Below, piece by piece: positions 1-19,600 of a stretch of 27,579 nt of DNA. The stretch covers positions 1 through 27,579 of the forward strand of contig LT635980.1 in assembly GCA_900128565.1 (NCBI GenBank), given 5' to 3'. The notes under the pieces were generated by a model, which saw only the letters and a program-made list of their open reading frames with translations, searched no databases and was not told the DNA's origin. How positions within the stretch are numbered: the first letter of the stretch is position 1; each line of letters begins with the position of its first letter. Both the position numbers and the translations under genes were made by a program. This DNA comes from Stramenopiles sp. TOSAG23-6 (Eukaryota > Sar).

Positions 1-68
1 TGTTTTATTTTTTTTTGTATAATTTTTTTTTTTTCGTACGAAATTTTGTACCTAACAAAATTTTTTAG

Positions 69-826
69 TTTTTTTTTCAAATATTTTTCCAAAATACATG
101 TATCTGGGAAAGGCACTTTCAAATAAAGAGCAATGGAGAAAAGCTCTGCTATATGCTGAGCTCGCTGCGCGTAATTTATCAAGTGCTGCTGTACAACTAA
201 TAAACCGCGAGGCATTTGTGACAACTGAAAAAAATGAAAACACAAACCTTGTAAGTTTTCTAAATTGAATTTCGAGTTAATTTTTTTCGAACCAAATTTT
301 GTACCTAACAAATTTCGAATTTGACATTTTTTTCACAATACTTGGTTCTGTTTTCCGAAAGTTTTGTGATAATAGCAAGTTTGGTACTAATGATGAATGT
401 TTTAAAGATCTTTACAAAAGTACTTTAAATAATTCGAATTCGTATTTCGCTAAGGGCAAAGACATGTTCAAAGAACCATACTTTGCACAATATATGCGAA
501 GTGCAGTTGAAGTGTCGTATCATGATTATATCTTACCAATGCTGCCTCAATTAATCACAAAATTAGAAGAGATCAAAGCAACGCAAAGTAGCGACAATGA
601 AGCTAGTTCAAAAACGGCCAAAGCAATTAAAACGCTTCAGGGTACCATTGCTTTTGCCGATTATATCAAACCAAGTTGTAGAGGTAGTAGCGCACCACAA
701 ATTTTAACACGCTTTTTGGGATGTTACGGTGCTCTACGATTTGGAATAGCTCGAGATATCCAAGAAGTCATACAATCGGGAGTTTTTCGTGTCACCAGTC
801 CTAGTAGCCCTAGCCCTAGTCCTTAA
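69..826 (+). CDS. 3' end of a second giant helical-repeat gene, paralogue of the gene at 1279-14244 (5' partial, spliced)
   Basis: Two exons can be read, 69-250 and 362-826, both in the same frame, with an intron of 111 bp between them. The first exon enters after the acceptor AG at 67-68 and reads ...SNIFPKYMYLGKAL...QWRKALLYAEL. The second starts FCDNSKFGTNDE and ends in a Ser/Pro tail (SPSSPSPSP) before TAA. The order matches the C-terminus of the neighbouring giant protein: LSNI...YMYMAMPLANEHSWVQCMRYLEL, then ICFDNRYDIGGYC, then a helical segment of similar length. This makes it the terminal repeat of a tandem paralogue whose body lies left of the window. Without the intron the frame stops at TGA 266-268, so splicing is required. 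Function is unknown. The homology to the neighbour is seen in the sequence; the full size of the gene is inference. Confidence 0.75.
251..361 (+). other. Spliceosomal intron in the 5'-partial paralogue
   Basis: The donor GTAAGT lies at 251-256 and the acceptor AAAG ends at 361. The length is a multiple of three, with an in-frame TGA at 266-268. Removing it joins two blocks that both align to the downstream giant protein. A 19-nt segment containing CTAAC (294-312) also occurs in the preceding intron (41-59). Confidence 0.7.
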
Positions 827-985
827 ATCCCCACGATGTTTTAAGAAAAGGGTATGGAAAAGAGTATATTTTGTCTCATTTCTTGGATGATGATTGTTAT
901 TATAAAAATAGAATATAGATATATATATATGTCTTTTTTTTTACGTATTTTGAAATTTCATGTTTTTTACGCGCGTCCGTTACTT

Positions 986-1005
986 TCCGAGATCGATCTC
1001 TCGGA
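986..1005. repeat. Short hairpin with nested 12-bp palindrome
   Basis: TCCGAGA (986-992) pairs with TCTCGGA (999-1005) around a 6-nt loop. Nested in it is the perfect palindrome GAGATCGATCTC (989-1000). It lies about 280 bp before the giant gene's ATG and could be a protein-binding site. No function is shown. Confidence 0.4.
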
Positions 1006-1153
1006 GATTTTGCGATCTTTGTTCATTTCGTACCATTTTTTTGTACTTAATCAATTGTTCGTTTCAGATTTCGGTTAAGTTTCTGGGTTATCCCCACATA
1101 ACCTTGTTCCATCTAGTAGTATCCAAACGCATCCTTGCTCTGTACAAGCTTTC

Positions 1154-1166
1154 TATATATTATAAA
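1154..1166 (+). promoter_or_regulatory. TATA-like element, candidate core promoter of the giant gene
   Basis: TATATATTATAAA lies 112 bp upstream of the ATG at 1279. The surrounding DNA is AT-rich, so chance occurrence is quite possible. The assignment rests only on the motif and its position. Confidence 0.22.
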
Positions 1167-1278
1167 TTCACAATCGTGCACTTTACACAATCACATAAGG
1201 TTTATTCATTACTAAACAAAGAAAAGTTACCGCAATCAACGCAATCAAGCGATTCATTCATTAATAAAACGTAGAAAT

Positions 1279-4200
1279 ATGAGTCCTTCTCCGAGTGCTA
1301 CAAACAAAGTTGAACAAGTAAACCCTCTTACTATTGCTCACACGTCTATTGAAATGAATCCTCTTGTTGTTGCTCAAACATCGGTTAAAACGAATCCAAT
1401 CGAAGTTACACAAAGCAGAAAGTATAACCCTCGACAGGCTATTCATGCGACGAAACGCCAAATTCCTCGAAACTCCCGGAGTACACGTAAAAAGTTGGAC
1501 CCAAACTATTCACAAGAACAAAAACGTAAACTGAAAAACAATACAGAAAGTTCTTGTTCAATAATGATGATTGGTGTAGCAGTTGGATTATTAAGTCTTG
1601 CTATAATCATTGTAGCATTTTTCTTAAATACTATATCAATGGATACACAAATTGAGAGAATGCAGACTGATTTGTCGGGGGCAAAAACAGAATTAAATTT
1701 GACAAAAACTTCAAGAATATCTGGCGGTTTATCACAAAGCACACAATCCAAAATTGCAGATATCATGGAGACTATGCCATCTTTGCAGATGGCAGCGGAG
1801 AAATTAAAAGAATCTCATATTTCCAAAGGAGTATCGACAACCGAGATTAACGAGATTAAAAAGGCGGTGAAAGAAGAATCAAAAACAACGCTTATCATAC
1901 GAATCAAAAGAGAAATTCGAGAAACTGAAGAGGCTATGCAAGAACTTGCTGCGGAAAGCAACGACAATGACGATGTAATCGCAGGCGTAAGAGCGTCTAT
2001 CAATACAGTCAAAGAAAAAGTTACAAAATTTGAGAAATTGGGTAATTTACAAAAAACTGACAAAATGGTTACTACGTTACTCGTTCAACTCCGGGGTATT
2101 ATTGCTCAAATACGTGCTCGCCAATCTTCCACATTTATTGGGAAACTGAATCAAATTGCTGCAAATCTAAAGTCAATGACTACTTTCAGTCGCAAAAACA
2201 ATGATAATGTTGAAAGGCTACAAAGTCAAATCACGAGGCTACGCGAGGCTCTTGGGCATGCAAAAGATGAAGATGAGCAAATAAAAAAGCAGATGGCAGC
2301 AGTGGCATCTACCGCAGATAAAGCAACTGCTGTTGCGAAGACATCAACCGAGATACAAAATTTAAGAAGAACAGCAAATCGGTTAAAAAAGTTTTGTCAT
2401 ATATATATGAAAGCTCTTGAAGGAATATCTGTGTCAAGTCATGATAAAATAACTTCCATAAACTCTTTTGAAAAGGCCGCCACATCTGCAAATTTAGTGA
2501 CCATGTCATCTGATGCCACACAAGCTGAAGAGTATCTTGCTTTTGCAGAATCTACATTCAAAGCAACATTGCCAAAAGCTCATAAAGCACTTGCTACTGA
2601 AGCCATTCGAATAAGCAGCGATATCAGAACACTTAGTAAGGGTTTGAATAATACTAACGTTTCTATGTTGATGGGAAAGGTTGGAGAAGGAACAAACTAT
2701 GCAAAGAAAGCCTTAACAAGTGTCCAGGATCATAACTCGAAAACATTTTTACATCTTATGAAAGATTCTCAGGTTGTTTATACGGAAGCACTTAAGGGAT
2801 TTGCGGTGATACTGAAAGAATTACTTGCTAAGGAAGCTGGAAGAAGTGGATATACGACAGCTATGAATCAAATTCGTATTGCAGAATCAGATATAAATTT
2901 GGCAATAAAAGGAGCTTCAAAAGTTTTGGGATTGGGAAAAATAAATAGTTCCATCAAATTGCTTATTGCCGCAAAAGAAGCTACAGAGTCAAGTGAATCC
3001 TTTGACAAAAGTAAAGGCATATCTGACTCAAAACAAATCGTATCAACATTGCGTGGTTTGAGGTTTATTTTACCTAACAAGGAAAAANTAAAAGTAGAAA
3101 CAAGCTTATCCAAGGCAATGAACAGTATTGAGCGTGCAGAGGTTTCAAAATCGAATAACCTTGCAGTATTCACGAAAACTTTTAATATTGCAATAGGACA
3201 CATAGCGACTGCAATATTAGACGCAATGGTGCCTGGCCTAGAATCAAAGCTTAAGGAACAATCAACTTCAGATGAAAGGGAAAGAGCTTTGGGTGAAGTT
3301 GGAAAAGCAAAGTTAAAAACAGAAAAGGCTAAAGATTCAATAAGATTCACTAAATGGTCCTTGGTCATGACAAATCTAAAGTTTGCAATTTTGTCGCTAA
3401 AAGAAGCATCGGCACCGTTTTCCCCAGATCAAGCAATCAACAAGAATGATATTGTTAAAACATTGCGCAATATGTCATCGACTCTAATTTCCATGAAAAG
3501 ATACTTGGTAGAGCCTGAAAGTCGGCAAAAGTTGGAACTAACTATATCAGAGGCAAAACCTGGACTTCATATTGTATCTGACACGACTAAATTTGTTACA
3601 AATGTTAGCAGTTCAATACATTTGTATGCTTATTCGATTGGTGGTCTACTATACCATGCAGTAACATCAAAGCTTTCGAAACAAAGCAAAACTTCAGTGC
3701 AACAACGCTCTCTTCATGAAGCTCGCAAAGCATTTGCATTATCAATGCAGGCTAAATCATCTGCAAATAAAAAACATTTATCTGAAGCTTTAACAACGTT
3801 AAAAGTTTCTGTTGAGTGTCTACAGGAAGCTGCTGCGGGTCTTTCGAAATTAAAAACAAAATTTGGAAATGATACACGATCAGTGCTTGATACACTGGAT
3901 ACATATTCACAAACATTGCTTGCAATGAAGCATTATTTTCCAGTCTCACAACAAAGGCCACTTGAAAATAAAGTAAGACAAGCTGTCTCGTCACTTGAGG
4001 ATGCCAACAGTAACAGATTGGAAAACACCAAATTTCATCAATTCATAGCATCGTCTATAGAAAAATTTGGTGAATCTGTGAACTTTTTAGGTCAACATCT
4101 CAAACCAATAGTGGGAGATCTGCCAGACGGCGATGGTAAAAGACATGCTATAAAACAAATGGAACTATCTACAGTCAATGGAAATTCTGCAGCAAAACTT

Positions 4201-7200
4201 GCACAAAAGCAAGAATTGAAAAATGCATTCAGCCAGCTAAACATTGGTTTCATATCATTGCAACAAACAGATCGTGATATAACCATTGGGATATTAAGAG
4301 GCATGGCTGAACCACTGCGCACAATGACTTCGCATATTTCTGACGAGCAAAAGAAAAAAAGCGCAATATCACGCATAACAAGCGCAGAATCTTCAGCTAA
4401 TGAAGCAAACAGGAATATATCTAACTCTGATGAGTTTATTGCAAGTGTTACGAAGTCAGTGCAGAGTTATGCATTTGCAATTTACCGAAAATTACTCCCT
4501 GGAATTCGTGAAAGTTTAAATGCTTTACGAGGTGACAAAAAGGTAGAAAGTTTGAAGAAAGCAGATACCGTAGAGACATACGCCGTTGCAGCACAACAAT
4601 TAGTAAATAATGGGAAATTTCAAGATGCGCTATTAAAACTTATACTTGCATTTAAACAATTGCACAAAACCGAATCTGTACTAACAATGGGGGGAGTTGA
4701 ATTTGACAATAAATATGCTGCAAATAAAGTTTTAAGAGAATACGCAACAGAATTGCTTCCAATAAGATTGTATTTAAAGAGCGTTGTGCAGCGTGATTCA
4801 ATGAAATCAAAGTTAGAGAGCGCTGCTAGTTACGCCGAAAAAGCAAAAACTAATATGTCAAATAAAAAGGAGTTCAATGAATATATGATTAAATCAATTG
4901 AAGAATACGCAAGTTCAATCAAAGGTGATTTATCGCATGCGATGAAGTTAGAAGTAAATTCTATGAAAGATGGCAGTGTTAAGGATGCCGCCCTGGCCAG
5001 AGTCGATGATGGTGAGAGAGATGCAGCATTTGTATCGAATCTTATTGATGGAAACTCTTTGCAAAGAGGTTTTACAAAACTTATTAGTGCGGGTGGTGCT
5101 CTGCAAGAAGCTGAACGCGCGATTGTGGTTGTAACACTCAGAGATATGGCTGAACCATTGCGAGATATGAAACCCCACTTGTCAAACGCAGCAAATATTA
5201 ATCGGGCTGAGAAGTTGATAGAAACGGCTGTTGAACTTGTAAGTGATGCGCATGATAATATAACTGATGAGAAGGACTTTATCGAACCCGCTAGCAAAGC
5301 TATAGAAATGTATGCTGATGTAATCTGGGTGGTATTATTATTTGACATAAAACACAAAATATTAAGTCTTCCAGATAATGTAAAGGGGAAAAGTGGCGCT
5401 TTAATTGCGGCAGGTAAGGCCAGAAAAGAAGCAAAATTGGCCCAAAGATATGCGAAACACGAAAAATTGATAAGCTCATTGAATCAATTAAAACTTGCAT
5501 TTACAGAAATAAAAAAAGCAGCTTCAGTTTGCCCAACAAATACTTTCCTGAATGATTTGTTGGACATTACAATTCAGTTAAGATATATGAAATCTCATTT
5601 ATTGACAAAAGAAAGGCAATCTAGTGCCAGTGAATTAATAAAGGAAGCAACGGCTATGGCCCAAGAAGCAGAGGAAAAAATTTCTAGTAAGCATAATTTT
5701 GCACATCTTGCTTCAGCATCAATTAGTAAATATGCAATTGTAATTCACAGTATAATTCTCCCCGACCTTAAAGAGAGACTTAGAAGAGAACTTCCGATAG
5801 GCAACATTCGAGATGTTGCTTTATCTGAAGCAGAAAATGCTAAAGCAGAAAGTGTGAAAGCCGAGAAACTTGGCGTTGAAGGGAATTTCTCTGGAGCTTT
5901 TGATAAATTAAAGACTGCATTCGCAGCATTAAAAGTAACAGAAGCAGCATTCGATGTTTCTGTTCTAATGTCAATGACAGAACCATTGGAAGGAATGTTA
6001 CCGCATTTGACAAATAAAAAAGAGAGAAATGACGCAAGAAATATGATAGTCGAAGCCGTGAAACTTCGAGATGAAACCCAAGCAAATATATCTACTCATG
6101 CAAAGTACTGGAAGCTGTGTCAGTCTGTAATTAAATATGCAAGTTGTATGTATATGAAAATTATACCTTCTATAAAACCAAAGCTTGAATCACAATTAGA
6201 TGGCGAGGACAGAAAAAAAGCGGTTAAAGACATTACAGAAGCTGATAAGCTTGCAAGACGTGCTACGTTTGTGGCAAATGAACGAAAATTGTCGTTAGCA
6301 ATGGAAAATCTTACAAAAGCGTTTACTTTACTCGAAAAAGTAGAAGTTTTTGTTCCTGTAACTGATGAGGAGTTTGTTCAAGTATTGAAAGATATATCAT
6401 CCACATTGAGACATATGAAAGCTTATATACCAGTAGAAAAACTACAACTCAAAGTAGATGCACATGCAGCTCATGCGTACACTTATGCAAATACTGCCGA
6501 GTTTAATATAAAGAAAGATAGAACAAAATTTAACAAATATATGGGGTTGGCTATTGTTGAGCATGTGCACAACATTCAAGGAATGTATAAAAGTATATAC
6601 AAAACGATTGAAGGTCAAGTCAAAAGTTATTCATATAATATCTCTAAAATAGCTATTGAACAGGCATTACAAAAGTGCGAAGCTGCAAAAGCGATTGTTG
6701 AAAAAGAATCTTGGAAGAAAGCCATGCCTTTACTAAGAGTCGGCATCGATTCTCTTAAGAACTCTGTAAATGCTTTGGTCTTAGACAAAAAATATATTAC
6801 CAATACTTTGATTAATATGGCCGAGCCTCTGCGACACATGAAAGTTTACATGACCCTTCAGTTCGCCAATGAAACTGAAGAGGTACTGCTCATTGCGAGT
6901 TCACTAGCAACCGAAGCAAAAAGTTACAAAACAGATAACCCGAGAATCGTAAGCAAGATTAGAAAATCCATTGAAAAATATGCTACGATTATGTTCGATG
7001 TCATTCAACCTGAGATTTTACGGAATTTACATGGCATTGTACGAAGTAGCTCTTCTATAACTGATTCATTTAAAATAATAAGAAAAGTCAAAACGCTCTG
7101 TACGGAGGCCCTAGAGTTTGTAACTGGTAACACTACTTCACATGAATGGATGAGTGCACTACCGAAGATAATAGACGCATCAACATTACTTCGTCGAGCT

Positions 7201-10200
7201 GCAACTGAATTAGTAGAAAGGGAAAAAGCCACACGCATATTAAAACAGTATGCACCGTTTTTACAATCTCTCATACCTTTCGCATCGATTTCTCATCAAG
7301 AAGACGCTTTTAGACTAGTCGGTCGTGGTGAGTTTTCTGCAAATTTTGCTAAAAATTACAGAGAAAATAATGATAAATTTCAGTCGGAAATGAGCAATTC
7401 AATTAAATCATATGGCTTAGCTATACATGACTATATTTTACCTGGTATAAAATCAAAAATAAAAGATCAACGCCAAATGGAAAGCACAAGTAAAACTGGT
7501 GCCCTAAAAAACATCGCCAAAGCAGCAATACTGAGTAGATCTGCAACAATGTTTGCGATGGGGTTTAATTGGTCAGACGGCCAAGTATCCTTAAAAGAAG
7601 CGATTACTTGCGTCACCGATGCAGTAAAATTGTTGCCCATCGACAGGGGTGTTTCTCAGCAAACATTACAGCAGACTGGAGAAACACTAGTATCACTAAA
7701 ACAATTTCTATCTTTAAGATCTCAGGAGGATACACGTAAACAACTTTTATTAAATAATCTACTGAGTGAAGCAGGAGAAAGCACAGATGCAGCAATGAAC
7801 ATTAAAAATGATGCAATCTTTATACCGTCCATGAAATCTGCTATAGTGAAGTATGCTCAGGCTATACGTGATCATTTCCAGCCTGACATACTTAAACAGT
7901 TAATGCAGATGAAACAATCGAGTGAAAACATGTCTCCAAGCATCATTATGAATATCAATGATGGTATTGATGACGCAACTGAGGCATTATTACAACAAGT
8001 CAAAGCAACTGAGGCAATTGCAATGCAAAACAGTGTAACTAGCACATCTAGAACCCGAGGCGTCAAAATCAAAGCCCCGTGGGAGTTGGGTCTATCAGCT
8101 TTAATTAATTCGGCAACCTTACTAGAATCTGCGACTAAGTCTCTAATTGATAAAACTATAGAAGTTGAGAAACTTGTGAACATCAGTGCTTCATTGCGTG
8201 GCATGAAGCAATACACGTCGAAGGCAACATCGGCTAAGGCTGAACTTGAAATAGCCAAAGGAATAACAAAATCAGGCATCGCAAGAAGCGCGATAAATGA
8301 TTTGAATAAATACGTAGAAAATATCACATCAGCGACATTACATTATGCTATTGCTATTATGTTGTTACAACCTGATATCTTAAAAAAACTTCGAAGCCTA
8401 CCTGCAAACAACGAAAAAGTTGTTAGAGAAAAAGATGCTGCTATAGAAAAAGTTAAGATCGCCATGAAAATGGCAACACTAGCTAGAAATTTAAACCAAG
8501 GAGGAAAGTGGTCACAGGTGCTGCCGCGATTAAATAGTGCAAACCATTTGCTTCGCTTAGGTCTAATATTTATACCACAAAGAAAGATTCAGCTTACAAA
8601 GGATCTGGTCGAACCATTACGAGGCCTGAATCATTTCTTATCAGTGGGGTATGCTCGAAATGCTTCAAAATCTTTATGTCTTGCTTTAAACTTTGCAAAT
8701 GCAGCATATTTGGATATAAAACATGGAAAAGTTTTTCAATATAAAGAAAATTTGGTCAAATCAATGAATGGTATTGCCGAAACATTGAAGTCCCTGATAT
8801 TGCCTGGTATAGAAATAAAATTAAGTTCAATGAAAGGTATAAATAAAGCATATGCTATGAGTGCTTTCGAAAGCACAAAGGAAAAATCCCAAAACGTTAT
8901 CGAGATTTTAAACGGTGATAGCGATAATTTAGCAAGCGCATTGGATAAATTATCCATCTGTATCAATGATGTACAACTAGGAGTGTCCTATATCGCACCA
9001 GATAAAACATACACACTGGCTGTGCTGGTACAACTTGGCGACTCCTTAAAAATATTGAGACCACTACTTTCAAAAATAGATAAAACTAAGTTTGATGATG
9101 ACATAGGCAAAGGTGTTCAATCCACAAATATGGCAGCTGCAATCAAAGATAGAAGATCAAAGGAGAATGTGGTAAAATTTGCTAAAAATGTAAAAGATGC
9201 GATTAAGTTCTATGCTTCTGCTTTGATGAATCAGACCTCTGAAACCGTAAAATCTAAATTGAAACTTAAGTCTGGGTGTTCTGGGTGTATATCTGCAGCG
9301 ATTGATGCAGATATAGCTCAAGGTACGATTAAAAATGCTTACTTATTAGCTGATAATAACGATTGGATTGCAGCATTTCGTAAATTAACTACTGGATTTT
9401 TCCGCCTTCAAAGTGCCGCAGTCAAAGCAATGGATATAGAAGCTACAAATGCCAAAGTTGATGATATACTAAAATATGTTATTTCACTACATGAAGTAGG
9501 AATACATTTACCAAAGGATAGAAAAATGAAAGCCAACCAAGCTATCGCGAATGCTCATGACAATGCACTTAGGGCAAAAACATATGTATCATCGGATCGA
9601 AAAGCCTTTTCCGTTTTCATAAATTTATCGCTCAGTGAGTATGGACACACTCTGTCTTCAAAAATGATACCATTTATAAAAACAAAAATAGAAAGTCTAC
9701 CTACCAATGCAATTAAAGCAGAGGCTTTAAAGTTTATTGATAAAGCTCTTTCAGATAGCATTTGGACAATAAAATTCGCCGATTCTGAACGATGGTCTTT
9801 GGCTTCATTAAGATTAAAGGCAGCGATGCATTCTATACACCTAGCAGTTGACAAATTGCCCCTAGATCAAGGCTATGTAGTGACCCGACTGGAGAAAATG
9901 AACACAGCATTTCACAATCTGATTTCACAGTTTTTACACAAAAGTAAGGATAAGAACAAGGCTGTGAAAATTCTTGATGCTGGAAAAAAAGAATTAAATC
10001 AAGCCAAGAATAAACGCACGACTAAAAACACTGCCGCGTTCAAAGCACACATTATTGCATCTTTGGTGAAATATTCCGAACTTATTTTAAATGTGATGGA
10101 ACCAGAACTAGATACATTGGTATATGCAGCGAAGGGCAAGCTATTAGGGCCAGAATTTAAAGCATCTACCACTTATCTAAAAGCAATAAGAACTCATTGT

Positions 10201-13200
10201 ACTTCGAGTCTTACGTATTGTAAAAAAAAAGAAATGTCCAGAGCATTTAGCGAACTATTTGTAGCATTTAACAAGCTAAAATCTTCATTGATTTATGTGG
10301 TTAATAAGTCAGATTTTGTTGTTTCATTGAACAATTTACAGATACCACTAAAGTATATGCGATATTACATCTCCACAGAGCAACGTGAAAAATGTATGAA
10401 GGAGCTGGATGAAGCTGTAATGTATGGAAATTTAGCGCAATCTCGGCCTACAACGTTCCATGAAAATATTGGAATTGCAATGAAAAAGTACACAAGTTCT
10501 ATAACTAAGTATATAGGCCCACGTATTAAAGAACAATTACTTGAGATGGATATTGATAACATTACAAATGCGGCCATTAAGAATGTAGAAGAATCGATGA
10601 AATTAGCTTTAGATACCAATGAGATGTGTAATCGGTCAGCGTTGTTAGAAGCAAAATGGACATTAGTGAAAGCAGTCCATGCTCTACAGCGCGCCGAAAA
10701 GGCATTACCAACGGACATAGATAATGCAACACAGATCATTTCAGACACATCTGAGGTAATGCGATACCTTCAGATGTATCTACCAGAAGATTTTCGCTAT
10801 CAATTAAACAATTTACTTTACCAAAGAGTTGAACCGTTGGAACTCGCACTTCGCAAGCAGGATAATATAGCTGAACGCGGGAATGCTATATTTCGGGTAT
10901 TAAAAATTGATGCACAGATTATGAAACAATTACTAGTCCCTAAAATAAAAGAATTATTGAATACTATAATTCGTGGAGCCAACGCAAACGGCAAAACAAA
11001 ATTCAAAAAAGTACTTGCAAAATTGGGCGATGCAGAACAAGAGGCCAAAAACTGCGACAATGTGAACAATGCTGAACAATGGACGACAAAATATCGTTTT
11101 GCAAAGACATGCATGTACTTAATCATAGAGATAGCGAACCAATTACCACTAGATAAAGGGTATATAGTGGATTTTTTGGAAGAAATGTATGAGCCCTTGA
11201 AAGATATGACTTCAAACGGAATAGTAAAATCTAGACTCAGCGTTGCTAAAAGCAAAGTATTAGAAGCAGCTGCAATGGTGGATAAAAGCAATGCGATTGA
11301 GTTATTTTACAATACTATTAATGAAGTATTAAAGCTGTATTCGGAAAGTATGGCCAACGAGATACCCATAGCTATTAAAACACAACTGAGAAGTAAAAGT
11401 GAGAGTATCGATGTACACACCGCAGTGATTGACATCGACATAGCAAAAGACTTTGCAACTAATGCAAATGCTTTGTCAAAAGGCCAAAGTTGGAAGGCAG
11501 CACTCCCGAACACCTTTATTGCATTCGAATATCTTACTAAGGCATATTCACCGTTATGGGATAAGGCCCCCAAAATACAATTATTGGGAAGTATACACAG
11601 TCCTATATCTTCTATGCTTTTATATTGTGATGAGAACAAACTAGAGGAAAATAAAAGTATTCTTAATATCGCCATTACAACAGCAAAAAATGCAAGCTTG
11701 GCGACCACTTACAAGGATTTTGCGAGGAATATATCTGACTCTATCGGTAACTATGCAGCAGTTATAGATTTATATATATATCCTAGCTGGAAAAACAGCT
11801 TTCAAAACCTCAAAGGTGAAGCCAAAACTGTTGCTATGGAGGGGTTAAAAAGTGCAAGAAGATATGGGAGGACATCTCGCGGACAGGCTGTCGCAAAGAA
11901 GTGGAATCTTGCTATATTATCACTTAAAAAGGCCGAGCAAATGCTAATCAAAGTTGAACCATCATTATCAAAAGATCGAGCGAAGGTATATGCTGCCACA
12001 TTCATGAAATCAATTGACTCACAGCTGAAAGTAAATATCCCAAAATATTCATCAGATCCAGATTATGCACCCACAAAATCAACGTCATTTAAAGAAGCGC
12101 GGGATATTGCCTCAGATGCATTTACCATTAAAAATGGAAGTACTACTAAATTTCGCGATAAACTTTGCGATGCAATGATCAAGTATGTTGATATTTTGAG
12201 TTTTGAATCGAATGAGCTCATCAAGACACTGAAAATGAAATCGGGTAATGGTTTTAAAATAGGTATTGATGATGCAAATTATGCAAAAAAATCTTTTACT
12301 ACAGTTCAAAAGATACTATATACGAGCAGAAGTAGGTGGATAAAAGCATTCAGCGAGTTCGCGGAGGGGTACGACAGCTTACTCAAAGCTCTAGTCCTGT
12401 TGGTAGATAAGGTTGAGGCCTTTAATATATTACGATCGGCTGTATTACCCTTCTTATTTCAAATGGATCCTAAGGATAATCTTTGGTTTAAAAAAGGAAG
12501 TCAACAATATAAGAATTTATCAGTTGGAACAGGTAAGGCAACTGCTTTAATGTGGCATGCATATGATGTGAGATCTGATTCTGGTTTGTTTGCGACAAAT
12601 ATGTCGAAAGCTATTAAGGAAATATCATCTGGGTGGATTTTAAGCGACTTTTTAAAAAACAAATTTTCTGAGAAGAATTGCAAAAAGAAAAATCCGTGCT
12701 TAAAAGCATATGAAAATATTGAAAAGGGCCAACGTGATTTGACACTTGCAAACACACTTGCTCTAAAGGAACGATGGTCTGAGGCTTACACTAAAGTAAA
12801 ATCGGGGTTAGATTTGATTAAACCCACCATAACTAAAGCCGACACTGACAAGTTGTGGGCTCTTGATGACTTCTTTACGAAGAGGCGTATTAACAGATTA
12901 TGGATGGCTCTTCAAACAATAAGAGATACGATGAAATACGACATAGCTTTAGAATACAGAAATAAAGATTGGCAATCTAAAATCCAAGACAAGTTAGAAT
13001 CCGCCAAAAAAATAAATGCCACCGACCGTAAGAATTTTATAAAGTATCTTTGGGGTATGTTTGACTTCATGATCAATAACTTTGAGATGGGTTTATCCGA
13101 TAAAATTCAAGCAACTCCTACAAGCAGTACCGAACTTCGTAAAGCAAGAACATCTCTGGGCGTGTTGCCAGAAAAAGATAATGATTTGACAGAACCTGTA

Positions 13201-14244
13201 ATATGGAATTTTACGAACGCATTCGATGAAGCATTAGAACATATGCACAGTGCATTATTTTTCAGTATAAGTAAGAATGAGGAAGCAATGAAGAAAATTA
13301 TGTTTTTAGAATCTCAATTACGTGTTTTTGATTTCTTTGCATTTTTTCGAAATAAATCTAATGCAGAAAAAGAAGAATTTTTAAAACCAATGCATGAGGC
13401 ATATGTACATTATATAAAAGCTGGGAAGAATATGGATTATCGAGAAGTATTCAACCGGGAAATATCATCTCAATTGCACTTATACTGCACATATATAAAA
13501 AAACTGTACCCAGAATTAAGAAAGTTACTCCAGGAAATGATTTCAGATAAAAAGAAAAGTAAGAGTTCAAGCTGGAGAAATAAGAATAAGGATCTCGCCG
13601 ATTCTCTGCTAAATATACAACTATCTAATATTGATGAATCTGAGCATTACATGTACATGGCAATGCCTCTTGCAAATGAACATTCCTGGGTACAGTGTAT
13701 GAGATATCTTGAACTTGCGATTTTTCACCTGACAAATGCTTCATTTGAACTACTTGACAGACCGAAATTGTATGAAACAATGAGAGATCGAGATCCAGGT
13801 TCAATGACTGAAATCTTACATAGAATATGTTTTGACAATCGTTATGACATAGGAGGATATTGTAGTGAGAGTAATACCAAATTTCATCATGGCCTCAATA
13901 CTTATTATGCCTATTCAAGTGATAGGTACTACATGAATTTAGGTATTTGGAATTATACTCGAATGGCTCTTGAGTCAATCATTAGTAAATTTGACAGTAT
14001 TTTGCATGATAAAAGCGACGGGACAAACCAAAACTTCTTGATTTGGAAGGGTGCTAAATATCAAAGAGATGAGGCTTCTGTTGAAGTAACAATTGCAAAA
14101 TCGTTTGTAACTTTATTACAAAGTCGATACAATTTAGATAAAAAGTACCGAGATGTGTTTGAGACGCTCGGCCTCATATATGGTGGAGTCAGAGCAGTTC
14201 AAAGAGCACAGGCAAATGGTATATTAATAAGCAAAAATGCCTAA
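1279..14244 (+). CDS. Giant single-pass membrane protein with ~26 diverged ~143-residue helical repeats
   Basis: A single uninterrupted frame of 4321 codons; one residue is unknown because of an N at 3088. Residues 1-93 are hydrophilic and rich in K/R, with three imperfect 12-residue repeats (about 14-45). Residues 94-117 form one strong membrane segment (MIGVAVGLLSLAIIIVAFF). The basic flank in front suggests N-terminus inside, type II topology. About 120-375 looks like coiled coil. From about residue 580 to the end run some 26 helical repeats, with a helix around MAEPLRxMKxYL, a helix around YMxxSIxKYAxxI followed by LPxIKxKL, and a helix around WxxAxxxLxxAFxxLxxA. Cysteines are sparse. ATG context AAT-ATG and the absence of a longer frame support this start. 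I do not recognise the family. A long rod or tether at a membrane or cell surface is inference only. Confidence 0.9.
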   Translation: MSPSPSATNKVEQVNPLTIAHTSIEMNPLVVAQTSVKTNPIEVTQSRKYNPRQAIHATKRQIPRNSRSTRKKLDPNYSQEQKRKLKNNTESSCSIMMIGVAVGLLSLAIIIVAFFLNTISMDTQIERMQTDLSGAKTELNLTKTSRISGGLSQSTQSKIADIMETMPSLQMAAEKLKESHISKGVSTTEINEIKKAVKEESKTTLIIRIKREIRETEEAMQELAAESNDNDDVIAGVRASINTVKEKVTKFEKLGNLQKTDKMVTTLLVQLRGIIAQIRARQSSTFIGKLNQIAANLKSMTTFSRKNNDNVERLQSQITRLREALGHAKDEDEQIKKQMAAVASTADKATAVAKTSTEIQNLRRTANRLKKFCHIYMKALEGISVSSHDKITSINSFEKAATSANLVTMSSDATQAEEYLAFAESTFKATLPKAHKALATEAIRISSDIRTLSKGLNNTNVSMLMGKVGEGTNYAKKALTSVQDHNSKTFLHLMKDSQVVYTEALKGFAVILKELLAKEAGRSGYTTAMNQIRIAESDINLAIKGASKVLGLGKINSSIKLLIAAKEATESSESFDKSKGISDSKQIVSTLRGLRFILPNKEKXKVETSLSKAMNSIERAEVSKSNNLAVFTKTFNIAIGHIATAILDAMVPGLESKLKEQSTSDERERALGEVGKAKLKTEKAKDSIRFTKWSLVMTNLKFAILSLKEASAPFSPDQAINKNDIVKTLRNMSSTLISMKRYLVEPESRQKLELTISEAKPGLHIVSDTTKFVTNVSSSIHLYAYSIGGLLYHAVTSKLSKQSKTSVQQRSLHEARKAFALSMQAKSSANKKHLSEALTTLKVSVECLQEAAAGLSKLKTKFGNDTRSVLDTLDTYSQTLLAMKHYFPVSQQRPLENKVRQAVSSLEDANSNRLENTKFHQFIASSIEKFGESVNFLGQHLKPIVGDLPDGDGKRHAIKQMELSTVNGNSAAKLAQKQELKNAFSQLNIGFISLQQTDRDITIGILRGMAEPLRTMTSHISDEQKKKSAISRITSAESSANEANRNISNSDEFIASVTKSVQSYAFAIYRKLLPGIRESLNALRGDKKVESLKKADTVETYAVAAQQLVNNGKFQDALLKLILAFKQLHKTESVLTMGGVEFDNKYAANKVLREYATELLPIRLYLKSVVQRDSMKSKLESAASYAEKAKTNMSNKKEFNEYMIKSIEEYASSIKGDLSHAMKLEVNSMKDGSVKDAALARVDDGERDAAFVSNLIDGNSLQRGFTKLISAGGALQEAERAIVVVTLRDMAEPLRDMKPHLSNAANINRAEKLIETAVELVSDAHDNITDEKDFIEPASKAIEMYADVIWVVLLFDIKHKILSLPDNVKGKSGALIAAGKARKEAKLAQRYAKHEKLISSLNQLKLAFTEIKKAASVCPTNTFLNDLLDITIQLRYMKSHLLTKERQSSASELIKEATAMAQEAEEKISSKHNFAHLASASISKYAIVIHSIILPDLKERLRRELPIGNIRDVALSEAENAKAESVKAEKLGVEGNFSGAFDKLKTAFAALKVTEAAFDVSVLMSMTEPLEGMLPHLTNKKERNDARNMIVEAVKLRDETQANISTHAKYWKLCQSVIKYASCMYMKIIPSIKPKLESQLDGEDRKKAVKDITEADKLARRATFVANERKLSLAMENLTKAFTLLEKVEVFVPVTDEEFVQVLKDISSTLRHMKAYIPVEKLQLKVDAHAAHAYTYANTAEFNIKKDRTKFNKYMGLAIVEHVHNIQGMYKSIYKTIEGQVKSYSYNISKIAIEQALQKCEAAKAIVEKESWKKAMPLLRVGIDSLKNSVNALVLDKKYITNTLINMAEPLRHMKVYMTLQFANETEEVLLIASSLATEAKSYKTDNPRIVSKIRKSIEKYATIMFDVIQPEILRNLHGIVRSSSSITDSFKIIRKVKTLCTEALEFVTGNTTSHEWMSALPKIIDASTLLRRAATELVEREKATRILKQYAPFLQSLIPFASISHQEDAFRLVGRGEFSANFAKNYRENNDKFQSEMSNSIKSYGLAIHDYILPGIKSKIKDQRQMESTSKTGALKNIAKAAILSRSATMFAMGFNWSDGQVSLKEAITCVTDAVKLLPIDRGVSQQTLQQTGETLVSLKQFLSLRSQEDTRKQLLLNNLLSEAGESTDAAMNIKNDAIFIPSMKSAIVKYAQAIRDHFQPDILKQLMQMKQSSENMSPSIIMNINDGIDDATEALLQQVKATEAIAMQNSVTSTSRTRGVKIKAPWELGLSALINSATLLESATKSLIDKTIEVEKLVNISASLRGMKQYTSKATSAKAELEIAKGITKSGIARSAINDLNKYVENITSATLHYAIAIMLLQPDILKKLRSLPANNEKVVREKDAAIEKVKIAMKMATLARNLNQGGKWSQVLPRLNSANHLLRLGLIFIPQRKIQLTKDLVEPLRGLNHFLSVGYARNASKSLCLALNFANAAYLDIKHGKVFQYKENLVKSMNGIAETLKSLILPGIEIKLSSMKGINKAYAMSAFESTKEKSQNVIEILNGDSDNLASALDKLSICINDVQLGVSYIAPDKTYTLAVLVQLGDSLKILRPLLSKIDKTKFDDDIGKGVQSTNMAAAIKDRRSKENVVKFAKNVKDAIKFYASALMNQTSETVKSKLKLKSGCSGCISAAIDADIAQGTIKNAYLLADNNDWIAAFRKLTTGFFRLQSAAVKAMDIEATNAKVDDILKYVISLHEVGIHLPKDRKMKANQAIANAHDNALRAKTYVSSDRKAFSVFINLSLSEYGHTLSSKMIPFIKTKIESLPTNAIKAEALKFIDKALSDSIWTIKFADSERWSLASLRLKAAMHSIHLAVDKLPLDQGYVVTRLEKMNTAFHNLISQFLHKSKDKNKAVKILDAGKKELNQAKNKRTTKNTAAFKAHIIASLVKYSELILNVMEPELDTLVYAAKGKLLGPEFKASTTYLKAIRTHCTSSLTYCKKKEMSRAFSELFVAFNKLKSSLIYVVNKSDFVVSLNNLQIPLKYMRYYISTEQREKCMKELDEAVMYGNLAQSRPTTFHENIGIAMKKYTSSITKYIGPRIKEQLLEMDIDNITNAAIKNVEESMKLALDTNEMCNRSALLEAKWTLVKAVHALQRAEKALPTDIDNATQIISDTSEVMRYLQMYLPEDFRYQLNNLLYQRVEPLELALRKQDNIAERGNAIFRVLKIDAQIMKQLLVPKIKELLNTIIRGANANGKTKFKKVLAKLGDAEQEAKNCDNVNNAEQWTTKYRFAKTCMYLIIEIANQLPLDKGYIVDFLEEMYEPLKDMTSNGIVKSRLSVAKSKVLEAAAMVDKSNAIELFYNTINEVLKLYSESMANEIPIAIKTQLRSKSESIDVHTAVIDIDIAKDFATNANALSKGQSWKAALPNTFIAFEYLTKAYSPLWDKAPKIQLLGSIHSPISSMLLYCDENKLEENKSILNIAITTAKNASLATTYKDFARNISDSIGNYAAVIDLYIYPSWKNSFQNLKGEAKTVAMEGLKSARRYGRTSRGQAVAKKWNLAILSLKKAEQMLIKVEPSLSKDRAKVYAATFMKSIDSQLKVNIPKYSSDPDYAPTKSTSFKEARDIASDAFTIKNGSTTKFRDKLCDAMIKYVDILSFESNELIKTLKMKSGNGFKIGIDDANYAKKSFTTVQKILYTSRSRWIKAFSEFAEGYDSLLKALVLLVDKVEAFNILRSAVLPFLFQMDPKDNLWFKKGSQQYKNLSVGTGKATALMWHAYDVRSDSGLFATNMSKAIKEISSGWILSDFLKNKFSEKNCKKKNPCLKAYENIEKGQRDLTLANTLALKERWSEAYTKVKSGLDLIKPTITKADTDKLWALDDFFTKRRINRLWMALQTIRDTMKYDIALEYRNKDWQSKIQDKLESAKKINATDRKNFIKYLWGMFDFMINNFEMGLSDKIQATPTSSTELRKARTSLGVLPEKDNDLTEPVIWNFTNAFDEALEHMHSALFFSISKNEEAMKKIMFLESQLRVFDFFAFFRNKSNAEKEEFLKPMHEAYVHYIKAGKNMDYREVFNREISSQLHLYCTYIKKLYPELRKLLQEMISDKKKSKSSSWRNKNKDLADSLLNIQLSNIDESEHYMYMAMPLANEHSWVQCMRYLELAIFHLTNASFELLDRPKLYETMRDRDPGSMTEILHRICFDNRYDIGGYCSESNTKFHHGLNTYYAYSSDRYYMNLGIWNYTRMALESIISKFDSILHDKSDGTNQNFLIWKGAKYQRDEASVEVTIAKSFVTLLQSRYNLDKKYRDVFETLGLIYGGVRAVQRAQANGILISKNA
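3030..14210 (+). repeat. Array of ~26 diverged coding repeats, period ~430 bp (~143 aa)
   Basis: The helix with consensus xLxxMAEPLRxMKxYL recurs near bases 3047, 3460, 3882, 4288, 4727, 5135, 5561, 5960, 6380, 6806, 7236, 7663, 8169, 8594, 9024, 9467, 9889, 10324, 10736, 11169, 11585, 11999, 12426, 12860, 13298 and 13810. The steps are mostly 400-440 bp; two are longer (7663 to 8169 and 13298 to 13810, just over 500). The best copies read GMAEPLRTM, DMAEPLRDM and NMAEPLRHM; others keep only the hydrophobic pattern. Copies are diverged in DNA, so this is an old protein-level array, not a recent satellite. Weaker copies may precede it at about 2360-2960. Exact unit borders are approximate. Confidence 0.85.
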
Positions 14245-14297
14245 ATAGAGACTTGAAGTATAATCTTTTACAAGTTTTTTAAATTTTAATAGTCAAT

Positions 14298-14306
14298 CGC
14301 AATCAA
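14298..14306 (+). other. Third copy of CGCAATCAA, in the 3' flank of the giant gene
   Basis: The 190-bp spacer 14245-14434 between the giant gene and the acetyltransferase shows no gene. It contains one more copy of the 9-mer that is tandem-duplicated just before the giant gene's start (1231-1248), here 54 bp after its stop. It may be chance. Confidence 0.2.
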
Positions 14307-14434
14307 ATCGAAATTAATAACGGTCGTGTACTACCTGACGGTGACCCTCCTTAGTGGCCACACGGCAAACTCTGCTAAGCTAGAGAGCAGATTTCATTAC
14401 GTTGCAGACTTTTGGCTTTTTTATGCTCATATAG

Positions 14435-14803
14435 ATGCAGAGTAAAAATGAAATTATTAATCAGATTGAAGTTTGCCATAATGGAGCAAATTTTAACATC
14501 GTGCAAGTTTTGACGGGTGAGGGTGGCGCTTTCATGATAATGAGCTGTACGATGAGAAATATAGTCCTTTCCCAGTTAGACTATCGCAACGTTCACAAAG
14601 ATAAAGTATTAGATTTCTATCACACCGAAACAAGGGAAGATCATCGGGGTAAAGGCCTTGCTGCTTTAGTCGTACACGAAGCTTTCGAATTTGCACGACG
14701 TGAAGGAAAGCAAGTATTACCATCTTGCACGTACATTTCGCACTTTGTAGAGAAGAATGGCAGTAGTTATTCAAAATTTATATACAAAAATAAAACTAGA
14801 TAG
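14435..14803 (+). CDS. NATD1-like GCN5-related N-acetyltransferase domain protein
   Basis: This 122-residue protein has the short, single-domain layout of the YjdJ/NATD1 group of the GNAT superfamily. Residues 62-108 carry the diagnostic block: YHTETREDHRGKGLA, followed by a helix (ALVVHEAFEFAR) and the LPSCTYISHFVEKN segment, equivalent to the LTCWYIQKYVKENP end of animal NATD1. RGKG at 71-74 corresponds to the acetyl-CoA pyrophosphate-binding loop. Members are presumed acetyl-CoA-dependent acyltransferases; the physiological substrate is not established for this family. The N-terminal half (VCHNGANFNIV...) fits the usual first strands. There is no targeting signal, so it is probably cytosolic or nuclear. 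Its stop lies 45 bp from the stop of the convergent EF-hand gene, so the two 3' UTRs almost certainly overlap. A single exon is sufficient. Confidence 0.85.
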   Translation: MQSKNEIINQIEVCHNGANFNIVQVLTGEGGAFMIMSCTMRNIVLSQLDYRNVHKDKVLDFYHTETREDHRGKGLAALVVHEAFEFARREGKQVLPSCTYISHFVEKNGSSYSKFIYKNKTR

Positions 14804-14848
14804 AATGATTATTAGTATTCATTATAAAAGTACAAAATATAATAGTCT

Positions 14849-15778
14849 TTACTTTTTTGATTTGTTTTTACCTTTCTTACCTTTCTTCTTTCTTTTCTTT
14901 GTTGTTGTTGTTTTCTTACTTTTAGTTGTACTAGAGCTATTTCCTTCAACCTCTTCCGCTTCTGCAGGAGTTGCTTCTGGTAAAGCTTTTCCCCACTCTT
15001 CAAGCCCCCCATAACACTGCTGAAATTCTATTTGTGTATAAAGTTGACCATCATTAGGATCATAGCGTTTTTCTATGTCTTGTTTTGTGTCATTCGTGTC
15101 TGCGTCACTATTTAGATTTTCCTCTAAATCCCATATTTCGTTCATTTGCTCAGGGTGTCGTGGGTCACCTTCTTTTCCGCCCTTTCCGTAGTAATAATAC
15201 TTATCTGGCATCCCATACTGTGTAGTGAATGTATCAAATTGTCCTGGGCTGAAATCATGTTGTTGTTTTAACATATATCGCCATTCTTCAAGCTGAATCT
15301 TCCCATCGTGGTTAGTATCATACACTTGCATAAGGAAACTTAATTTTCTAGGAATTTCAACAATTTCCTCATTTTCCATAAATGTTTGCAGTTCCTTCTC
15401 CGTCAAGAAACCTTGATTATTTACATCTAAGGCCTTAAATATATCATCAATCAAGTGTTCTCCTGGGGTAGGGTATTGGACGTCTCTATCGTCATAATCA
15501 GTAGGTTTGGAATAAACTTCTGCCTTACTGACTGAATTGTAGTATACTCTATACCCTTCTTCGTCAAACTTATAACCCCACGACTCCCGTATTTTGAATT
15601 CTAATTCTGGATCTTCTTCAGCGACGTAAAGCGTTTCAATTCCTGCATCTTGTAACTTTTCTTGAGTCGCCTGCTTTTGTTCTAGTTGAACAACTTTGCG
15701 TTTTTCTCTTGCCTCGGCTAAAATCTTCTGAGCTCGAGTTAACGGTTTCTTCTTCTTCTTCTTCTTTTTACGAGCCAT
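14849..15778 (-). CDS. Lysine-rich WW-like / EF-hand protein
   Basis: 309 residues, hydrophilic, with no signal peptide. It begins with a lysine run (residues 4-11) and ends in a second basic tail (about 285-309, KK/KR/GKK-rich). Residues 66-92 resemble a WW domain: SWGYKFDEEGYRVYYNSVS ending with KP, with W67, Y79-Y80, N81 and P92; the second tryptophan is replaced by Y89. Two EF-hand loops follow. DVNNQGFLTEKE (118-129) is plausible but atypical, and DTNHDGKIQLEE (154-165) has all canonical Ca2+ ligands. A third degenerate loop (about 236-250, DPNDGQ) may be structural. The product is probably a Ca2+-responsive adaptor that can bind nucleic acid or acidic partners through its basic ends; that role is inference. 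No closer family name is recognised. The start is the ATG opening the lysine run, with A at -3. Confidence 0.85.
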   Translation of the reverse strand: MARKKKKKKKKPLTRAQKILAEAREKRKVVQLEQKQATQEKLQDAGIETLYVAEEDPELEFKIRESWGYKFDEEGYRVYYNSVSKAEVYSKPTDYDDRDVQYPTPGEHLIDDIFKALDVNNQGFLTEKELQTFMENEEIVEIPRKLSFLMQVYDTNHDGKIQLEEWRYMLKQQHDFSPGQFDTFTTQYGMPDKYYYYGKGGKEGDPRHPEQMNEIWDLEENLNSDADTNDTKQDIEKRYDPNDGQLYTQIEFQQCYGGLEEWGKALPEATPAEAEEVEGNSSSTTKSKKTTTTKKRKKKGKKGKNKSKK

Positions 15779-16100
15779 TATTGTTTATGAAACTTTGTCT
15801 AACGTATGCTTATATTATTTCTCATTCATAAGAATATATATTGTTTTCTCGATGGTACCGAGGCTTTTAGTTACCGCTAAGTACTTTTACAACAATCCGG
15901 TTAGATACTTGGAACATATGCGGCTACTACTAGCTAGAGTATAGGATATAACTGGTACCGCACGTTACGTTTTTGTTTTTTTACCGTATATATAACGGAA
16001 ATAATATACTATGTATAATAGCTATAAATTTTGTTTTTATATTTTAAATAAAAAATAATATGCTTCTAAAAAATAGATTTTCTCATGAATAGTGTAGACA
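15779..16100. other. Intergenic spacer with four TACCG motifs
   Basis: 322 bp between the start of the EF-hand gene and the 3' end of the NIPA-type gene, both on the minus strand. No gene is seen. TACCG occurs four times on the plus strand (15856, 15872, 15956, 15982), two of them within GGTACCG exactly 100 bp apart. The region should hold the EF-hand gene's promoter and the transporter's polyadenylation region. Confidence 0.5.
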
Positions 16101-17468
16101 TCAATCAGCACAATTTTTGTTTACAACAAGTCCAGGTGGTTTTGATGTTTGCCTTTTTGCGGGTTGGCTCATATAAATATTGCTACTATTATTATTACTG
16201 TTGACATCTTTCCAACTCGATATTTTTGACAAACTTTCACAATCTAAGACTCTTTGAGGTAGTTTATTCACATCATTTGGTATATTTCCCACAAAACTTT
16301 GTCTATTAAATTTACTAATTATAAATGCAGATCCATTTTTGTCAGGCAAAATTGGTTGTGATGAATTTGACGAATCATCTAACCATTCTTCGAAAGATTT
16401 TGTTTTTGGATTTGTAGAAAATCCAGTTGCTCTAGATAGTCGATAAACTCCAAACAACGTAATACAACAACCTATTGTAAAGAAAAAAAATTGATTAAAA
16501 CTGAAGGATTTCAGTTCATCGTAGCATACGAGACCTCCAAATATTGAAATCAAGATCCAAAATGTTTGAAAAATGGGAACACAGTATAGTGCATCAAATA
16601 TTTGCAGTCCGGAGTTGAGCCAGTACACTTGTGCAAACACAGAAGTAAGCATTAAGAAAACAACAATCCAGAGTTCTACTCTATCCGATATTTGTTGATC
16701 CTCAAATGTCAGAGTTGTTTTAATGGCTTCAGCTGTACACTTACCTAATAAAACAGATTGAGCACCAATTACACCACTAAGTGCTGGGTAGAGAAATCTA
16801 TGTAGTCTATGAACTGCGGAATTAGGTAAATAACAGTATCGTCTTAAATTTGTATTATCATATATCGCATATTTTTCCTCAATCGATGTGATACAAGAAT
16901 ACATACCAAATATTAATAGGATTATGATAAACGCATAATATTGAAAACGTGTGGAAGAATAAATGTCAAATAGCGTATCAAGATTGAATATTAGTGAATC
17001 GTGGTGCGGTCCGAAAGCGACTGACAGAGTGCACCCCCCACAAATCAGAAACATATTACGAACATTAGATCTATCAATGGTTTCATTCAACATTACAGGG
17101 GCAATAACCATATTTGAAACCAAAGTCAGAGACCCCAAAGTAGCTACAAGTGACTGTGCGGTAAACGCAAGAGCAGCGAAATCAGCGAAACTGCCTAAAA
17201 CTATAAATATCATTCCTAGAAGCCATTTAGGCTGTGTTATATAAGATACCCTGTCCCATTTTGGTTTTTCATATTCTCTCTGCAAAGGTTTGTAGTATGT
17301 GTTTTCAAGGTGTGCAAGCTTTTGGAGGTTGAGCCCCAGGTTGGAGACAAAAGAAGCGAGAATAGCAATGAAAGCACCAATTGTCCACTGTAGATCCTTT
17401 ACCCATAAACCTTCCCATTGAATTTGAGGTAGATGCGATGTGATATTCATCGCCATGATTTTATTCAT
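16101..17468 (-). CDS. NIPA-family (DUF803) membrane transporter, probable Mg2+ transporter
   Basis: 455 residues with about nine hydrophobic segments near 28-48, 82-102, 104-126, 138-153, 176-195, 227-244, 265-283, 295-316 and 325-345, followed by a hydrophilic Ser/Asn-rich tail of about 105 residues. The second and third segments show the family signature: KWLLGMIFIVLGSFADFAA, then QSLVATLGSLTLVSNM, then LNETI. This parallels the NIPA pattern of a small-residue-rich helix followed by (V/A)TPLGALSV and a conserved LNE or LGE. NIPA proteins belong to the drug/metabolite transporter fold, and several transport Mg2+ at the plasma membrane or endosomes. Substrate here is by family only. The first of three close Met codons is used (MNKIMAMN); any of them gives an intact first helix. 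The long soluble tail is somewhat more than in animal members. Confidence 0.88.
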   Translation of the reverse strand: MNKIMAMNITSHLPQIQWEGLWVKDLQWTIGAFIAILASFVSNLGLNLQKLAHLENTYYKPLQREYEKPKWDRVSYITQPKWLLGMIFIVLGSFADFAALAFTAQSLVATLGSLTLVSNMVIAPVMLNETIDRSNVRNMFLICGGCTLSVAFGPHHDSLIFNLDTLFDIYSSTRFQYYAFIIILLIFGMYSCITSIEEKYAIYDNTNLRRYCYLPNSAVHRLHRFLYPALSGVIGAQSVLLGKCTAEAIKTTLTFEDQQISDRVELWIVVFLMLTSVFAQVYWLNSGLQIFDALYCVPIFQTFWILISIFGGLVCYDELKSFSFNQFFFFTIGCCITLFGVYRLSRATGFSTNPKTKSFEEWLDDSSNSSQPILPDKNGSAFIISKFNRQSFVGNIPNDVNKLPQRVLDCESLSKISSWKDVNSNNNSSNIYMSQPAKRQTSKPPGLVVNKNCAD

Positions 17469-17491
17469 GATAGTAGGCTTCTACTAAATAT

Positions 17492-17701
17492 TCAATCAAA
17501 TCTTTCAACAATGCTCTCGTATATTTGGGAAAAATTCAAATTAGACAGACTTTGTATGCGTTTATTTATTAGTAGTCTTGCCCTGGATGCTCGCTCCTCA
17601 AGTCGATTTTGAATTTTCAAAAAATGTAGATTTCGTGATTTTGGCATAAAATTAATTACTTTCAGTTCAAAATCATTTCGATGTAACACACACGAGGTCA
17701 C
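17492..17701 (-). CDS. Doubtful 69-codon reading frame upstream of the transporter (small gene or upstream ORF)
   Basis: An ATG-started 69-residue frame on the same strand as the NIPA-type gene, ending 23 bp before that gene's ATG. The product is basic and could form an amphipathic helix (RLEERASRARLLINKR). It lies in the only spacer (17469-17762) between the transporter and the divergent gene at 17763, so it would be either part of the transporter's 5' leader, acting as an upstream ORF, or a shared promoter region that is open by chance. No homology is recognised and there is no sign of splicing into the transporter. Treated as uncertain. Confidence 0.22.
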   Translation of the reverse strand: MTSCVLHRNDFELKVINFMPKSRNLHFLKIQNRLEERASRARLLINKRIQSLSNLNFSQIYESIVERFD

Positions 17702-17762
17702 ACACTTTTAAACTCCTTTAGGACTTTTACATTACACGGAAAAGAAAAGTTGGAAATCAAAG

Positions 17763-19484: not shown

Positions 19485-19600
19485 TTTTCAAACAAAGAAA
19501 AAAAAATTAAAAAAAAATAAATGTTTTCTTTACTCAATAAAATCGTTTGAACAAAAGAAACCTTCAAAGAGAAGAACGGAAATTAACTTCTATAATTGTT

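Follow-up and report, generated by a model that had tools for sequence, protein, structure and literature searches.

Giant genes for single-pass membrane proteins with a predicted five-helix repeat, very likely in tandem, in a probable MAST-3 stramenopile

Giant rods assembled from helical bundles have been described before, and protists commonly possess giant proteins restricted to their own lineage. A contig from a marine lineage that has hardly been brought into culture, and whose attachment and feeding are poorly known, raises the question of what a protein of 4,321 residues does there, whether its repeat belongs to any described family and whether it stands beside a second gene of the same kind. 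The window analysed here is the entire contig C30 (27,579 bases); the assembly searched is eukaryotic and comprises 8.03 Mb in 408 contigs. Our searches matched the repeat unit to neither a described family nor a solved structure. A tandem pair of such genes with a fixed unit order offers a clean case of how a giant repeat protein stays constant after duplication, and the element that interrupts one of them points to a large, recently spread family of introns with unusual ends.

The open reading frame at 1216–14244 runs for 4,342 codons without a stop and contains a single ambiguous base, at 3088. Its first ATG is codon 22 (base 1279), and the predicted protein is richest in lysine, leucine, alanine and serine. 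One hydrophobic segment, at codons 114–137, stands apart from the remainder, with a best 19-residue mean hydropathy of 2.91 versus 1.43 for the next-best stretch elsewhere. The gene and the parts of its predicted product are as follows:

1279–14244, forward strand: giant gene (paralogue 2), read as a single exon encoding 4,321 amino acids
1279–1554, forward strand: basic N-terminal tail of 92 residues, net charge +10 (+4 in paralogue 1)
1555–1626, forward strand: single transmembrane segment, predicted from hydropathy
1663–2607, forward strand: stalk-like region, its helical or coiled-coil nature judged by eye
2608–13773, forward strand: array of 25 recognised units of about 140 residues and a gap, from the unit profile; the units are predicted to be five-helix bundles
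13774–14241, forward strand: C-terminal cap without a recognised unit

The earlier note had described a 4,321-residue single-pass protein, and the open frame, its ATG and the lone hydrophobic segment bear this out; a single transmembrane helix near the N terminus is predicted in both copies, from the hydropathy profile of the window copy and, in paralogue 1, from visual inspection of the corresponding position. The two tails share the motifs NPL..AH.S.E and QSRKYNPRQA, and stalk codons 211–350 are 53–59% identical between the copies. The gap in the array, at approximately codons 3885–4029, has room for one diverged unit.

The repeat is detectable without any model of it: substitution-score autocorrelation of the protein peaks at lags of 283 (3.9 s.d.) and 143 (3.5 s.d.) residues, among 400 lags. 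A hidden Markov model built from 8 hand-cut seed units recovered non-seed units with E values down to 1.4e-19, and on iteration identified 25 units, the first starting at codon 465 and the last ending at codon 4186, whereas 20 shuffled copies of the protein yielded none at E ≤ 1e-3. The final E values come from a profile trained on these same units, and so exaggerate the strength of the matches. Support that is independent of training comes from paralogue 1, in which 24 units were found at E < 1e-3, and from two short frames in the window (101–250, E = 1.3e-6; 362–823, E = 2e-5), with 0.016 as the best value among 8 control open reading frames. Units within the protein are approximately 23% identical to one another (mean best identity). 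The unit alignment used for the scans below comprises 24 of the 25 units, the first (codon 465) being left out.

Structure prediction, proposed in the earlier note for two to three adjacent units, gave five helices per unit in both models. The AlphaFold2 alignments consisted of the window's own units only (12 rows of two units and 8 rows of three). Two units (codons 1309–1590) were predicted with a mean pLDDT of 92.4 and a pTM of 0.61, and three other units (codons 1585–2014) with 82.8 and 0.55; because the pTM values are modest, the models do not fix the angle between units. In the three-unit model, helices run nearly continuously between two units (residues 249–271, then 274–294), and the longest helix of the two-unit model has approximately 34 residues (5 nm). 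Foldseek returned no natural protein below E = 0.01 for either model (best 0.17 for two units and 0.016 for three), and the sole row at E ≤ 0.001 in both cases was a designed helical barrel. The first natural proteins for the two-unit model were metavinculin and an alpha-catenin fragment, neither of them significant (E = 0.17; query TM-scores of 0.29 and 0.27). For the three-unit model, melatonin receptors (E = 0.016) ranked above vinculin (E = 0.033, query TM-score 0.22). Such rows come by default with helical proteins.

In the sequence searches, the view that the repeat cannot be assigned to a named class has held up. The whole protein drew three Pfam rows and the pieces of paralogue 1 two, all below their cut-offs. 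With the 24 units, 21 Pfam families appeared at E ≤ 1, each matching one unit only (best E = 0.0021), and three NCBIfam families matched one unit each (E = 0.0023–0.0048); we judged all of these to be chance. TPR, ankyrin, HEAT and other named repeats were absent from the 21 families, and the spectrin profile gave no row at E ≤ 1, a search in which HMMER filters drop most matches above about 0.1. Neither FIVAR nor GA, nor actin-, microtubule- or KASH-type domains, nor adhesion or other known domains were found in the Pfam scans; talin, vinculin and alpha-catenin gave no row in either the Pfam or the PDB sequence searches. PHROGs yielded no match at E ≤ 0.01. Against PDB sequences, the whole protein had one row (E = 1.2) and the unit profile 16 rows at E ≤ 10, the best a designed minibinder (E = 0.017), again judged to be chance. 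In a set of 5.8 billion proteins, none of 1,805 scored candidates for the whole protein and none of 7,998 for a two-sequence alignment of about 500 residues reached E ≤ 0.01, and no relative was present among 54 pattern matches in viral contigs and 63 in prokaryote contigs; because a candidate is found only through short exact words, and the query in the later searches was limited to codons 2290–2789, distant or fragmentary relatives may be missed. Among the titles listed by a literature search, none concerned a giant protein with tandem five-helix-bundle repeats. By sequence comparison, the repeat family appears to be undescribed as far as these searches reach.

Is there a second giant gene beside the first? 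The left end of the window carries the following features, all of which concern paralogue 1:

1–99, forward strand: most of one copy of an introner-like element, which begins 3 bases earlier on contig C91 (C91 19876–19977)
100–250, forward strand: penultimate exon of paralogue 1, the end of a repeat unit (unit profile E = 1.3e-6); it starts at 98 or 100, a dinucleotide ambiguity
251–361, forward strand: intron of paralogue 1 with GT..AG ends, its splicing predicted from sequence
362–826, forward strand: last exon of paralogue 1, a partial repeat unit (unit profile E = 2e-5) and the C-terminal end

The left flank, where a repeat-bearing gene was to be looked for, does hold one: the body of paralogue 1 lies on C91, in a frame at 6935–19900 with 4,321 codons open. 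Its layout matches that of the window copy (first methionine at codon 22, then tail, membrane segment, stalk and array), and the two are collinear at 42–46% identity. The terminal 114 bases of C91 and window positions 1–114 are identical in 113 of 115 columns, the two gaps falling in homopolymer runs. Most of this overlap is the repetitive element, so the junction rests on 15 bases and the protein match; the overlap alone is weak, because several contigs start close to an element end. Three observations nonetheless make the tandem order of the two giant genes very likely: 15 matching bases outside the element, the reading frame, and the resemblance of the downstream exons to the repeat unit. 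The collinear copy on C91 and its overlap with the window thus support the proposed tandem pair of giant helical-repeat single-pass proteins.

The fine detail at this junction differs from the earlier description. Because bases 1–99 are a copy of the intron-like element, which lies between the long 5′ exon of paralogue 1 and the exons at its end, the exon that had been started at 69 begins at about 98–100. It aligns to codons 4147–4193 of the giant gene with a score of 71, reached by 0 of 1,000 shuffles. Among the C-terminal blocks said to align in order between the paralogues, W..AL.Y.EL stands on this alignment, and the 'SNI' of SNI..YMY is translated element. The FCDN/ICFDN and last-helix blocks are not confirmed by the alignments of the last exon (362–823): within codons 4001–4342 its best match is at approximately codons 4043–4119 (score 51, reached by 2 of 1,000 shuffles), within the whole protein near codons 1193–1297 (score 55), and from codon 4151 onwards it scores 33, little above the wrong frames (27 and 29).

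For 23 of the 25 units of the window copy, the best match among the 24 units of paralogue 1 is the one with the same index (mean best identity 43%). As unit order has been kept, the array was probably already in place when the gene was duplicated as a whole. Across 3,811 aligned codons (amino-acid identity 44%), the paralogues differ by 0.395, 0.309 and 0.495 at codon positions 1, 2 and 3, and these differences show the predicted protein to be under constraint throughout the region in which the two copies align. The large family envisaged earlier is not supported: searches with both protein halves and the N-terminal part found only two copies in the 8-Mb assembly; the contigs seen were all longer than 10 kb, and shorter ones may be missing.

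The element that interrupts paralogue 1, about 100 bp long, is abundant. A genome search with it returned at least 42 matches, from 40 scored of 1,551 loose candidates, and its end pattern, searched with up to one mismatch, has 815 genomic occurrences, whereas the reversed control gave 0. We scanned loci L023, L024, L027–L054 and L057–L061 and the window, a biased sample in that 28 loci were chosen as best matches, and found 48 distinct elements. At least 50 codons are open on both sides in the sense orientation for 39 of the 48, and in antisense for 3. Exact removal of the element leaves the two longest flanking frames in phase in 36 of these 39 cases (chance expectation, 13), although copies within the same gene have flanks in common and therefore do not count as independent; one of the three out-of-phase cases is an overlapping second call in L034. 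The five 10-kb stretches picked without regard to the element (L057–L061, one of which is half N) contributed none of the 48, although the looser end pattern was present in all five and the core pattern in three. The elements start mostly with GTATGT preceded by AT (AT in 40 of 48) and end in ATACAT (39 of 48); a T-run followed by AG is missing from 26.

Some copies sit in, or at the edge of, conserved domains. In L044, alone among five loci, the same Pfam family lies on both sides of the element: adh_short (short-chain dehydrogenase), profile positions 1–143 and then 152–191. An RNB match in L023 extends to the last residue before the element, an ankyrin match in L050 begins at the first residue after it, and L041 and L042 have a Pfam domain upstream only. 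The GT..AG intron at 251–361 carries a diverged copy of the element core (TTTCG.AC.AAATTTTGTACCTAACAAA), including a branch-point-like CTAAC; the repeat pair 28–62 and 281–315 is 91% identical. At least seven contigs (C4, C18, C19, C21, C37, C43 and C45) start no more than about 60 bases from an element end; the assembly therefore seems to break at elements, and such ends may help scaffolding.

With ATGTAT/ATACAT-type ends, in-phase flanks and no fixed AG, the element resembles an introner whose ends lack AG and read GT..AT or AT..AC. As in the introners covered by the relevant parts of PMC9860276 and PMC7789003, many near-identical short copies are dispersed in coding sequence in the sense orientation, and here the frame stays intact if they are removed. 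The element differs from them in lacking an AG at a constant 3′ place, and it has a terminal inverted hexamer, ATGTAT/ATACAT. Introners are known from aquatic protists, as described in PMC9860276, whose survey also extended to 520 partial genomes from aquatic organisms and whose main text does not contain the word MAST. Amoebophrya introners also have non-canonical ends, according to sections of PMC7789003, and in Pelagomonas introners were suggested by intron length, according to part of PMC9481584. Our literature search found no paper title on introners in MAST-3, and the word 'intron' is absent from the main text of two MAST papers (PMC12614181 and PMC8163842).

The host is probably a MAST-3 stramenopile, because the proteasome beta gene of the window (25879–26814) is 92% identical to the EukProt record GSMAST32.ASY1.ANO1.686.1, its next match after a single one at 100%, the name MAST-3 being read from the record label. 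The other readable organism names among the best 120 of 1,031 matches were diatoms or Nannochloropsis. An apicomplexan and an Amoebophrya-like dinoflagellate parasite were set aside as hosts, given this match and 0 occurrences of the dinoflagellate spliced leader with one mismatch allowed. No match to a light-harvesting protein was found, which leaves a photosynthetic host unsupported. Match positions reveal near-identical contig pairs (C13/C14 and C275/C276) and inverted duplicates inside C120, C262 and C372; both are to be expected when the DNA of single cells is amplified, inverted duplicates within contigs being a product of whole-genome amplification. At 17712–19484 the window also encodes a protein without a Pfam match in which a segment of just under 50 residues (beginning NSKKDKLKIPNDVTEIQN) occurs four times in tandem with almost no change.

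What might the giant proteins do? A structural, adhesive or surface role, as put forward in the earlier note, is plausible. We tentatively favour, at a little less than even chances, a giant type II membrane protein in which the chain of predicted five-helix bundles acts as an extracellular tether. The short basic tail would lie in the cytosol, one helix would cross the membrane and a helical stalk would lift the remainder off it; some 25–26 five-helix bundles would then form a chain of roughly 100 nm with a small cap at its end. Taking the longest predicted helix (5 nm) for each of 25 bundles in line would give about 130 nm, less if the chain zig-zags. We picture the chain as passive and probably flexible, a tether or fibre at the cell surface that would serve attachment or form a coat; binding surfaces would be provided by the cap and by individual bundles. 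Other members of MAST-3 live attached to surfaces or on diatoms, according to PMC5778133, which makes an adhesion role attractive.

Orientation decides between this reading and its most serious rival, a rather unlikely one in our estimation: that the body is cytosolic, with the N-terminal helix in an internal membrane (endoplasmic reticulum, Golgi or nuclear envelope), and the protein ties membrane to cytoskeleton or membrane to membrane. Nesprin and giantin have a similar long-tether layout, but reversed. In the window copy, the 30 residues on the N-terminal side of the membrane segment sum to a charge of +6 and the 30 that follow it to 0, which favours a cytosolic N terminus and an external body; in paralogue 1 the two values are +1 and +2, so that the difference is clear in one copy and absent in the other. 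N-glycosylation sequons are at chance in both copies (38 versus 33.2 ± 5.4, and 36 versus 38.1 ± 5.6), with 10 columns in common out of 41 and 37, and their counts do not support a lumenal or extracellular body. Cysteines are few (27 in each copy, 14 of them aligned), and some of the weak fold rows, vinculin and alpha-catenin, are cytosolic linkers. Against the cytosolic tether, the Pfam scans found no actin-, microtubule- or KASH-type domain. We keep it in serious contention because the charge rule is clear in one copy only and sequons are at chance.

A talin-like force-bearing rod, in which bundles unfold one by one under load, expose binding sites and buffer length and force, would suit tandem five-helix bundles, the near-continuous helices between two units and the appearance of metavinculin and alpha-catenin as first natural proteins in the two-unit fold search. 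Those rows are not significant, with query TM-scores of 0.2–0.3 and melatonin receptors above vinculin in the three-unit search, and no sequence link to talin, vinculin or alpha-catenin was found; we regard this rod as improbable. Least probable of all is a lineage-specific gene pair without a specific mechanical role, which fits the lack of homologues in the sets searched but sits poorly with the constraint along both copies and the conserved unit order.

Returning to the extracellular tether, a more specific version of it, which we hold to be doubtful, is that the repeat is a new five-helix-bundle family private to MAST-3-like stramenopiles and that the proteins form a surface fibre of about 100 nm by which these tiny flagellates would grip prey, hosts or particles. 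With its confidently predicted new repeat unit, the tandem pair offers a good basis for further work.

Among known systems, the talin rod, vinculin and alpha-catenin are strings of four- and five-helix bundles in long linker proteins, and in this the giants resemble them, as the weak Foldseek rows reflect. They differ in having no sequence relationship that we found (Foldseek E values of 0.03 or worse) and in possessing a transmembrane segment, of which we know of none in those families. Spectrin and nesprin are likewise long arrays of helical bundles, and the near-continuous helices between some giant units recall them. A spectrin repeat, however, has three helices and about 106 residues, whereas the giant unit has, in the models, five helices in about 140 residues and drew no spectrin row in Pfam. 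Giant bacterial surface proteins of the Ebh type are built of many small helical domains and share with the giants the design of an anchored rod; the giants are eukaryotic, with an N-terminal membrane anchor and a predicted five-helix unit.
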